Assembly: GCF_014252095.1 (NCBI RefSeq)
Contig: NZ_CP059210.1
Span: 87,773-151,772 of the forward strand
DNA length: 64,000 bases
Origin: Blattabacterium cuenoti
GTDB lineage: Bacteria; Bacteroidota; Bacteroidia; Flavobacteriales; Blattabacteriaceae
Direction of reading: 5' to 3'
The notes below the pieces were generated by a model. That model searched no databases. It was given only the letters and a program-made list of their open reading frames with translations, and was not told where the DNA came from. This document shows, one piece after another, positions 12,948 to 52,317 of this stretch. The position numbers and the translations under genes were made by a program. The stretch's first letter is position 1; every line of letters starts with the position of its first letter.

Positions 12948-13991
12948 TTGAAAAATAAATTATATTTTCCTTCTTATGAAGAAATTGTTAAGGCTAAAAA
13001 CCTATTAAAAGATATTATTTATGAAACTCCATTGCAGAGAAATTCTCTTTTGTCAGAAAAATATCAAGCTAATATTTTTTTGAAAAGAGAAGATTTGCAG
13101 ATTATACGTTCTTATAAAATTAGAGGAGCATATCATAAAATAAAAAGTTTATCCCATATAGAACTAAAAAAGGGAATTGTTTGTGCTAGTGCTGGAAATC
13201 ATGCACAAGGTGTAGCTTACTCTTGTAATATATTACAATTACCAGGAAAAATTTATATGCCTAGTACTACTCCTAAGCAAAAAGTAGAAAGAGTTAAAAT
13301 GTTTGGAAAAGAACATGTGAAAATTGTTCTTATTGGAGATACTTTCGATGCGGTTAGTTATGAAGCCATGAGAGATTGTAAAAAGAATAAAAAAATATTC
13401 ATTCATCCTTTTGATGATATCAAAATTATTGAAGGGCAAGCTACTGTAGGTTTAGAAATTTTAAAACAATCTAATGATCACTTTATTGATTACGTTTTTC
13501 TTCCTATTGGAGGAGGAGGATTGGCTTCAGGTGTAGGAAGTATTTTTAAACAATTTAGTCCAAAAACTAAAATCATAGGAGTAGAACCTGAGGGCGCTCC
13601 ATCTATGAGTCATTCTTTCAAAGAAGGAAAAGTCATAGAATTAAAAACCATAGATAGATTTATTGATGGAGCTTCAGTAAAAAAAGTAGGGGAATTAAAC
13701 TTTCACATATGTAATCGAGTTTTATCTGAAATAAAGACCGTCCCGGAAGGAAAGGTTTGTACTACTATTTTAGATTTATACAATTTGGAAGCTATTGTAG
13801 CGGAACCAGCTGGAGCTCTTTCAATATCTGCATTAGACCTTTATTCTAAAAAAATCAAAGGAAAGACTATAGTTTGTGTATTAAGTGGTGGAAATAACGA
13901 TATTACTAGAACAGAAGAGATAAGAGAAAGATCCCTTTTATATGAAGAAAAAAAACACTATTTTATTGTCAAGTTTCCACAAAGAGGATGA
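12948..13991 (+). CDS. ilvA: Threonine deaminase, catalytic domain only (regulatory domain cut off)
   Basis: IlvA deaminates threonine to 2-oxobutyrate, the entry to isoleucine. The PLP fold is complete: PLP lysine in SYKIRGA, glycine-rich phosphate loop GGGGLASGV, and VLSGGNNDI near the end of the catalytic domain. The start must be TTG at 12948, since an in-frame stop lies 24 bases upstream and no ATG fits. The frame enters the C-terminal ACT-like domain (HYFIVKFPQR) and then stops at 13989-13991, giving 347 residues. The rest of that domain continues in the +1 frame. The enzyme is probably active but without isoleucine feedback. Confidence 0.9.
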   Translation: MKNKLYFPSYEEIVKAKNLLKDIIYETPLQRNSLLSEKYQANIFLKREDLQIIRSYKIRGAYHKIKSLSHIELKKGIVCASAGNHAQGVAYSCNILQLPGKIYMPSTTPKQKVERVKMFGKEHVKIVLIGDTFDAVSYEAMRDCKKNKKIFIHPFDDIKIIEGQATVGLEILKQSNDHFIDYVFLPIGGGGLASGVGSIFKQFSPKTKIIGVEPEGAPSMSHSFKEGKVIELKTIDRFIDGASVKKVGELNFHICNRVLSEIKTVPEGKVCTTILDLYNLEAIVAEPAGALSISALDLYSKKIKGKTIVCVLSGGNNDITRTEEIRERSLLYEEKKHYFIVKFPQRG

Positions 13992-14166
13992 TATTGCTTA
14001 TTTCGAATACTCTAAAAAAAATTCTAAAGAAGAAGGACCAGCTATAATAGGAATAGAATTAGCAGATAAGAAGGAATTTTCTGGATTATTAGGAAGAATG
14101 AAAAAATATAGAGTTCATTTTCAGTACCTAAATAAAGATCCAGATTTATTTCGTGTTCTTATATAA
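13984..14166 (+). pseudogene. ilvA: Out-of-frame remnant of the IlvA C-terminal regulatory domain
   Basis: From 13984 the +1 frame reads EDDIAYFEYSKKN, then GPAIIGIELADKKEFSGLL, and ends at 14166 with a closing segment like that of full-length Bacteroidota IlvA. It should directly continue the upstream IlvA frame, but about a dozen residues expected between KFPQR and DDIAYFEY are absent and the frame is shifted. An internal deletion best explains this, not homopolymer slippage. An ATG at 13942 could open this frame, but a free-standing half ACT domain is not a credible gene. Confidence 0.8.
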
Positions 14167-48847: not shown

Positions 48848-49420
48848 ATGGAATGGATAAATTCATTAATCAGTTGTTTCATGATCCTTTTTAGCATTAT
48901 CGATATACTAGGAAATGCTCCCATAATTATGGGTTTTAAATCCAAAGGAAATATTATAGAGACAAAAAAAGTGATAGTGACTTCTCTTATTATCTTTTTA
49001 TCTTTTTTGTTTTTAGGACAACCTATGCTAAAAATTATTGGTGTGGATGTTCACTCTTTTTCCATTGCAGGATCTATCGTTTTGTTTTTAATTGGGTTAG
49101 AAATGATTTTAGGCATAGATCTTCATAAAGTAACAGAAAACGCCCAAACTTCTATCGTTCCAATTGCCTTTCCACTTATAGCTGGCCCCGGATCCTTAAC
49201 TACTCTAATTTCTCTAAGAACTACTTATGATGTAAAAATCATACTTATTTCTTTGATACTAAATATGATAGTAGTCTATTTTGTCATAGATAGATGTGAT
49301 TTTATAGCCGAAAAAATAGGAACTAATGGTTTAGATATACTAAAAAAGATATTCGGGATCGTTTTATTGGCTTTTGCAGTAAAAATTTTTGGAGCTAATG
49401 CCAGTCAATTATTTCAATAA
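48848..49420 (+). CDS. MarC family integral membrane protein
   Basis: MarC-family proteins are six-helix membrane proteins of unknown function (earlier links to multiple antibiotic resistance were not upheld). The 190 residues have the expected hydrophobic segments and the family motifs DILGNAPIIMGF near the start and PIAFPLIAGPGSLTTLISL in the middle. I start at ATG 48848 rather than the TTG two codons before. Its end overlaps the end of the convergent rnpA by 12 bases. Confidence 0.9.
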   Translation: MEWINSLISCFMILFSIIDILGNAPIIMGFKSKGNIIETKKVIVTSLIIFLSFLFLGQPMLKIIGVDVHSFSIAGSIVLFLIGLEMILGIDLHKVTENAQTSIVPIAFPLIAGPGSLTTLISLRTTYDVKIILISLILNMIVVYFVIDRCDFIAEKIGTNGLDILKKIFGIVLLAFAVKIFGANASQLFQ

Positions 49421-49796
49421 AAATGAGAGGTCAGTATCTCTTATGAGATTAAATATTTTTTTAATAGAGGGGTTAATATCCTGAAATTTTGGTAAAAATT
49501 TTCCTATATAAATAAATACAATATGATAACTACAACGAGTTTGTTCTATTTTTTCTTCTAAAATAGATTTATTTAATAAAAAAGAGGCCCGCAATAAACG
49601 TTTTATTCTATTTCTATGTACGGCTTTTTTGAAATTTTTTTTTTACCAAAGTTCCAATTAGTTCTGTACATCTCATTTTATTTTCATTATGGGGATACAA
49701 TAAAAAAAAACTATAAATAGGAAATACAGGTAATAATTTTCCGTATTTGATTGTATGATAAATAATATTTTTTTTTCTTTTTACTTGAAAACCCAT
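49409..49796 (-). pseudogene. rnpA: Ribonuclease P protein component, frameshifted at an A10 tract
   Basis: RnpA is the protein cofactor of RNase P. From 49796 the frame reads through VFPIYSFFLLY to GTLVKKKF and stops shortly after. The rest, KKAVHRNRIKRLLRASFLL (the RNR-type RNA-binding motif) and the C-terminal helices, continues in another frame to 49409. The break is exactly at ten A (T10 on the plus strand, 49635-49644). With nine A the frame reads VKKNFKKAVHRN, just as in homologues. It may be rescued by polymerase slippage, be a true pseudogene, or be a sequencing error. Confidence 0.82.
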
Positions 49797-51074: not shown

Positions 51075-51836
51075 ATGAAAATTCTTCAAATTTCATTTAT
51101 ATTATTATGGCGGGTCTGGTTTTTTCTAATCAATATATTTTTAGTTCCATTATGGGCAGGGGCTTCTATTCCATTTCTTTTTCAAGATAAATATTATCAT
51201 ATTGCATATTGGTTTCACCAAATGTGGGCGAGAAGCAATCTTTTTCTCATGGGTTTTTGGTATGTATTAGAAAAAGATCAAGAAACATTAGATAAGAATA
51301 AACAATATATGATAATCAGTAATCATAGTTCTATTATGGACATTATGTTGATTTACTCTTTAATGAGAAACCATCCCTTAGTTTTTGTAGGGAAAGCGGA
51401 ACTAGCCAAACTTCCTTTTTTCGGTTTTGTTTATAGAAGAAGCAATATATTAATAGAAAGGAAAAATTTTTCTAGTTGTATGCAAGTATTTAAACAAATA
51501 CAGAAAAAAGTAGATTCTGGAAAAAGTGTCTGTATTTTCCCAGAAGGAGGGGTACCTAACCCTTCTATTTTTTTAGATCATTTTAAAAGTGGTGCCTTTT
51601 CTATTGCTATAATAAAAAAAATACCTATCATTCCATTTACCATAGCTGATATAAAAACAAAGTTTCCAAGTTTTCCTATTATAAAGGGTGGACCTGGAAA
51701 AATACGAATAAAACAACATCACTCCATCTCAACAAAAAACTTGTCCTTAAAAGACAAAAATTTTCTAAAAGAAAAATGTTTTAATTTAATTAAATATCAA
51801 TTAGAACAATTTGAACGTGAAAAAATTAACTCGTGA
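51075..51836 (+). CDS. plsC: 1-acyl-sn-glycerol-3-phosphate acyltransferase
   Basis: PlsC adds the second acyl chain to form phosphatidic acid. The 253 residues have an N-terminal membrane segment (about 4-28), the catalytic H-x4-D motif in NHSSIMDI, VGKAELAKLPFFGF, and the glycerol-3-phosphate-binding CIFPEGGVPN, then PIIPFTI. The length is normal. Its stop overlaps the GTG start of rnhA (GTGA), so the two are translationally coupled. Confidence 0.93.
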   Translation: MKILQISFILLWRVWFFLINIFLVPLWAGASIPFLFQDKYYHIAYWFHQMWARSNLFLMGFWYVLEKDQETLDKNKQYMIISNHSSIMDIMLIYSLMRNHPLVFVGKAELAKLPFFGFVYRRSNILIERKNFSSCMQVFKQIQKKVDSGKSVCIFPEGGVPNPSIFLDHFKSGAFSIAIIKKIPIIPFTIADIKTKFPSFPIIKGGPGKIRIKQHHSISTKNLSLKDKNFLKEKCFNLIKYQLEQFEREKINS

Positions 51837-52317
51837 ATAAAAAAATTCATATTTACACCGATGGTTCTTCCAAAGGAAATCCTGGACCTGGGGGATATGC
51901 TATTTTTATAGAAGTAGTAGGGACTACCTATAGAAAAGTTATTTCCGAAGGTTTTCGTTATACCACTAATAATCGAATGGAACTATTAGCTGTCATAGTT
52001 GGATTAGAAAAAATTACAAAAAAGAAACAGAATATTGTTGTATTTACCGATTCTAAATATGTGGTAAATCCTATTCAAAAAAATTGGATATTTCAATGGA
52101 AAAAAAATAATTTTTATAAAAAAAAAACGCAGATCTATGGATCCGATTTTTAGATATATTTCGTCAACATTTTATTGTTTTCAAATGGATAAAAGGACAT
52201 GATTTTCATTATATTAATGATTATTGTGATCGACTATCAGCAGAAGCTTCCAAAAGAAAGAATTTAAAAATAGATTATGTTTATGAAACATATGAAAAGA
52301 AAAAAAATATTCATTAA
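51833..52317 (+). pseudogene. rnhA: Ribonuclease HI, frameshifted at an A10 tract
   Basis: RNase HI cuts RNA in RNA-DNA hybrids. From GTG at 51833 the frame gives IYTDGSSKGNPGPGGYA, TNNRMELLA and FTDSKY (three of the four catalytic acids) and stops at 52151-52153. The remainder, ADLWIRFLDIFRQHF and WIKGHDFHYINDYCDRLS with the last catalytic Asp and the His, lies in another frame to 52317. The break is exactly at ten A (52118-52127); eleven or eight would restore the frame. Without correction the enzyme would be inactive. Slippage rescue, decay or sequencing error are all open. Confidence 0.85.

Follow-up and report, generated by a model that had tools for sequence, protein, structure and literature searches.

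The question raised by this locus is whether an RNase HI gene (rnhA) that loses its reading frame inside a run of adenines is being lost or is still kept in use by slippage during expression. The window analysed here is a 64-kb stretch (positions 87,773-151,772) of a 630,985-base genome of the cockroach symbiont Blattabacterium, hereafter G000, and all coordinates below refer to that window. The genus named in the preliminary description was borne out, its closest named hits being records of Blattabacterium cuenoti. The gene rnhA occupies positions 51833-52317 of the forward strand, and the tract within it (52118-52127) consists of exactly ten A, preceded by T and followed by C, in the context TTTTAT-A10-CGCAGAT (Table 1). 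The ORF opened by the GTG reads ...WKKNNFYKKKTQIYGSDF and ends at a premature TAG (52151-52153), which gives a product of 106 amino acids whose last eight residues are out of frame. The frame followed from 52102 reads KKNADLWIRFLDIF...FKWIKGH...NDYCDRLS... and is free of stops from the tract to the TAA; read one base back, the gene gives KKNADLWIRFLDIFRQHFIVFKWIKGHDFHYINDYCDRLSAEASKRKNLKIDYVYETYEKKKNIH and ends at 52317. Thus the preliminary description was right that the frame is lost exactly at the A10 tract, and a check of the frames confirmed that A11 or A8 would rejoin the two parts.

Table 1. Positions of the features at the rnhA and rnpA loci, in window coordinates
Feature	Position	Strand	Family match or basis
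rnhA (RNase HI) 5′ part; GTG start	51833..52153	+	PF00075, E=1.4e-23
A10 tract, point of frame loss in rnhA	52118..52127	+	sequence and relatives
A AAA AAA in zero frame, candidate -1 ribosomal slippery heptamer; would yield KKKN	52120..52126	+	sequence
rnhA 3′ part, -1 frame, NADLW...WIKGH...DYCDRLS..., no ATG, TAA 52315-52317	52126..52317	+	
rnpA (RNase P protein), split at poly-A tract	49412..49796	-	PF00825
A10 tract, point of frame loss in rnpA	49635..49644	-	

The two parts together make one complete RNase HI. On the DNA, the Pfam RNase_H profile (PF00075) matched in tandem in two frames, with profile positions 2-93 followed by 96-140, and the read-through protein matched positions 2-140 of the 141-position profile at 2e-33. 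The joined protein aligned over its whole length with RNases HI of solved structure, and its WIKGH (WVKGH) and the last Asp in CDxL aligned with those of E. coli-type RNase HI. As had been described, the region after the tract keeps WIKGH and the last catalytic aspartate, stop-free to 52317. The four catalytic acids (Asp, Glu, Asp, Asp) do not stand in one open frame, as the first three (in YTDGS, NRMEL and TDSKY) lie within the 106-residue ORF and the last (in DYCDRLS) lies in the other frame. Peptides from DLWIRFLDIF or IKGHDFHYINDYCDR would mark full-length RNase HI. Separate expression of the 3′ part was ruled out because it lacks an ATG and stops precede it.

A10 runs by themselves are nothing special in the window, in which 34 matches were found against 23.6 expected and 20 A/T runs of at least 10 lie inside ORFs. 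The part that chance does not explain is that the rnhA break falls on the tract and that it recurs in other lineages. Among the 56 A/T tracts of at least 9 inside window ORFs, only two, those of rnhA and rnpA, lie at frame breaks. This survey covered the 64-kb window and the homologous stretches of four relatives, and further split matches in the window were explained by different start regions or by small ORFs without a family match. The threonine ammonia-lyase gene ilvA (12948-14163, forward strand) is also out of frame, owing to a 44-bp deletion near 13985 that sits between short AAAGA-like repeats and is not a homopolymer break; ilvA is intact in the relatives G018 and G045.

To place the break among relatives, rnhA was compared across the genus. 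The gene was found in 49/49 Blattabacterium genomes, and the A-run at this site ranges from 5 to 14, with at least 10 A in 21 genomes. A10 was found in G000 alone. The comparison with sister genomes that had been proposed for this locus showed that G018, with 91.8% identity to G000 over 64 kb, carries A11 and is in frame. The rnhA of G000 thus has an indel in an A-run of at least 9, is otherwise in frame, and has in-frame relatives. The nearest relative, G045 (94.2% identity), has A9 and is in frame because an upstream A-run is also one base shorter, a compensating indel. In G045, the two A-runs, about 17 bases apart, have changed from A8 to A7 and from A11 or A10 to A9, and the residues are RIFIKKN compared with NNFYKKKN in the others; either the frame was broken and then mended, or both indels may have arisen simultaneously. 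G047 has A13 and is out of frame, its relatives G001 and G041 have A14, an independent loss of one A at the same tract. In the fast-evolving lineage of G029, the rnhA frame is lost at an A12 that lies about 100 bases upstream of the G000 site. These comparisons mark the rnhA tract as a hotspot of mutation, at which G000 has lost one A (A11 to A10).

Among the 21 genomes with at least 10 A, 19 are in frame and 2 out of frame, a distribution with a probability of 8e-8 if frame were irrelevant and the genomes are treated as independent despite their shared ancestry. Tract length does not ignore frame, which implied that rnhA is normally kept in frame by selection; the G000 lineage has left that regime. 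Its gene is, moreover, the only RNase H, since RNase HII (PF01351) was absent from 49/49 Blattabacterium genomes, with the search control detected in 14/14, and PF00075 occurs once in the G000 genome, a second such gene not being found. Therefore, the G000 lineage may be losing its sole RNase H.

Selection was then compared on either side of the tract. Changes unique to one of three close relatives (G000, G018 and G045) were counted, and over the 63 codons downstream of the tract G000 showed 6 amino-acid changes, or 7 when a codon absent from G045 is counted, against 1 silent change, compared with 0 amino-acid and 4 silent changes in G018 and G045 together. The Fisher probability of this difference was 0.008 with a three-way site taken as silent and 7/462 = 0.015 without that site. 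Upstream of the tract, G000 had 3 amino-acid changes and 6 silent ones. Over 50 intact genes of the window, G000 showed 653 amino-acid and 754 silent changes, and none of 724 63-codon segments of these genes matched the rnhA downstream pattern, defined as at least 6 amino-acid changes and at most 1 silent change in G000 with no amino-acid change in G018 or G045.

A codon likelihood model, run on 12 genomes with code written for this analysis, gave the same picture. On the G000 branch the downstream omega was 0.955 against a background of 0.061 (P = 0.0053), and it did not differ from 1 (P = 0.98). The 2.4-kb tree pairs G018 with G045 and the 64-kb tree pairs G000 with G045, so that the topologies conflict; the tests on G000 were run on both with unchanged outcome, the downstream test giving P = 0.0036 under the alternative topology. 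The 95% interval of the downstream omega is wide, from about 0.13 up, so weak selection on the 3′ part is possible. Upstream, omega was 0.087 and rejected 1 at P = 0.0045, and the likelihood profiles of the two parts differed only at about P = 0.07, so that one omega near 0.2 fits both. For the joined gene, one omega of 0.203 rejected both the background (P = 0.038) and 1 (P = 0.013), suggesting that the whole of rnhA is relaxed in G000, most clearly after the tract. Downstream omega was close to 0 for both G018 and G045, and for G029, on a long branch, it was 0.034; the test had no power for G047. Purifying selection after the tract, which is expected of a slippage-rescued frameshift, was not what G000 showed, and the relaxed selection that had been named beforehand as counting against the suggestion was seen in this lineage, with dN/dS about 1 against a background of 0.06.

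The undamaged look of the 3′ part had been called unexpected, an argument that proved weak. Under neutral change, about 5.6% of substitutions in this stretch (39 of 696 weighted) would create a stop, and in comparisons of noncoding DNA of G000 with that of its relatives, each substitution is matched by about 0.22 indels. About 8 substitutions after the tract would thus be expected to bring about 0.45 stops and about 1.8 indels; none of either was seen in G000, an outcome with a neutral chance of roughly one in ten. The lack of stops and indels is weak evidence either way, and it needs no special cause because only about eight changes have accrued.

Taken together, these results favour a slippage deletion followed by relaxed selection, with rnhA in early loss or at much reduced function, to which we give a probability of about 0.6. 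In the proposed course of events, replication slippage in a hypermutable tract of lysine codons shortened A11 to A10, a step shown by the comparison with relatives, and put the sole RNase H gene out of frame. As predicted from the sequence, most translation would then yield the 106-residue protein, which lacks both the C-terminal part and the last catalytic Asp. Afterwards the downstream third has evolved under little or no amino-acid selection, as shown by the counts, which are small. Any full-length RNase HI would require transcripts to which one A has been added, or a -1 slip of the ribosome on A AAA AAA, and would presumably be made at a level too low for normal constraint on the C-terminal part. 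The removal of R-loops and primers would be left to other enzymes, such as a PolA-type 5′ nuclease, whose 5′-3′ exonuclease domain was detected in the G000 genome. Gene damage under way in G000, namely the ilvA deletion, was counted for early loss. Counted against it were the upstream constraint (omega 0.087), because a dead gene needs none, the retention of rnhA by all 49 genomes as the sole RNase H, the lack of stops and indels in the 3′ part, and the hint of rescue given by rnpA.

This hint comes from the RNase P protein gene, which served as the comparison case. In 33 of 40 classed Blattabacterium genomes, rnpA loses its frame at a tract of A9-A11, with both wrong frames represented, and the in-frame species are interspersed among the broken ones; beyond these 40, inspection placed 4 more in frame and 2 more as broken. 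Tract length in rnpA is nearly indifferent to frame, unlike in rnhA. In the 33 out-of-frame genes, the half downstream of the tract, with the RNR motif, had an omega of 0.172 (2 delta lnL of 278 against 1), and terminal branches alone gave 0.156. Within the clade of G000 the out-of-frame tips are looser (0.46 vs 0.14), so rescue may be incomplete there. Since rnpA is out of frame yet constrained downstream, poly-A frame breaks can probably be rescued in Blattabacterium. Neither the search across the genus nor the expected neighbourhood yielded an rnpA match in G038, which may truly have lost the gene.

The most serious alternative is that rnhA is still functional, with RNA polymerase slippage (+1 A) or -1 frameshifting giving enough RNase HI. 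Frameshifted genes of endosymbionts have been reported with 12-50% slippage-corrected transcripts (PMC5009743), rescue of rnhA needs one added A, and transcription indels in homopolymers of Buchnera are mostly insertions (PMC5574713). A -1 ribosomal slip on the candidate heptamer would yield the same protein. Also in favour are the standing of rnhA as sole RNase H gene, the constraint on its upstream part, the downstream constraint that rnpA genes keep when out of frame, and the low downstream omega of G029 after its A12 break. Against this stand the downstream omega of about 1 in G000, the 19 in-frame genes among 21 with long tracts, which indicate that correction is not cost-free, and the lack of any frame-restoring transcription error in a transcriptome-wide study of Buchnera (PMC5574713). 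Full function thus appears rather unlikely to us, and of the two options originally offered, recent or ongoing loss is the one favoured by the downstream dN/dS of about 1, while selection fully kept up by slippage is not. The relaxed selection downstream of the tract makes full maintenance less likely than early loss or a weakening of function; slippage as a partial rescue is plausible because rnhA is constrained upstream and rnpA behaves as if rescued throughout the genus.

It is improbable that A10 is a sequencing or assembly error for A11 in an intact gene. Homopolymers are prone to error on some sequencing platforms, but so few of the long tracts in window ORFs lie at frame breaks, the rnpA break recurs across many genomes, and an intact rnhA would not be expected to give a downstream omega of about 1. 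Least probable of all, and very much so, is that the truncated 106-residue product is itself retained in some role as the C-terminal part decays, an idea suggested by the omega of 0.087 upstream and 0.955 downstream and by the three catalytic acids of the N-terminal part, since the difference between the parts (about P = 0.07) depends on amino-acid changes that number 1 to 3 upstream and 6-7 downstream, and an RNase HI fold without its last third and fourth catalytic acid is, from general knowledge of the fold, unlikely to be active.

The rnhA frame break resembles known cases among endosymbionts. Poly-A frameshifts in genes of Buchnera and Blochmannia that are corrected by transcriptional slippage have been reviewed (PMC5009743), and eight poly-A frameshifted genes were listed for Blochmannia vafer (PMC3017870). 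Like these, rnhA of G000 belongs to an AT-rich insect endosymbiont, has an indel of one base within about 9-12 consecutive A with the remaining frame intact, and shows an in-frame relative and independent events in other lineages. The difference is that the Buchnera and Blochmannia genes show no raised rate or have a correction proven by cDNA, whereas rnhA of G000 has a downstream dN/dS near 1. It also resembles early endosymbiont pseudogenes (PMC3017870), with a homopolymer indel as the first lesion and neutral changes after it, and differs from them in being the only RNase H with a 5′ part still under constraint. In the genome paper of Blattabacterium strain Bge, rnpA is the only pseudogene (PMC2768785). 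That gene is like our rnhA in genus and in being an RNase gene interrupted at a poly-A region and otherwise conserved; its interruption was attributed to a point mutation to a stop (PMC2768785), whereas the break seen across the genus is one of tract length, and rnpA is strongly selected downstream, unlike rnhA of G000. The literature searched yielded no report of slippage in Blattabacterium, of a broken rnhA there or of the genus-wide rnpA break. The frame-break event in rnhA is of a known kind; more surprising is the pattern met along the way in rnpA.

The contrast between rnhA, relaxed downstream of its tract, and rnpA, constrained there, offers a direct way to separate rescued poly-A frameshifts from dying genes, and rnpA is a better place than rnhA to test slippage in Blattabacterium. 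It is conceivable, if doubtful, that the RNase P protein in most species and the sole RNase H in G000, the latter reduced and weakly selected, are both made via polymerase or ribosome slippage. If the sole RNase H of G000 is being lost or dimmed, the bacterium would be left with no enzyme devoted to RNA:DNA hybrids, an unusual condition.
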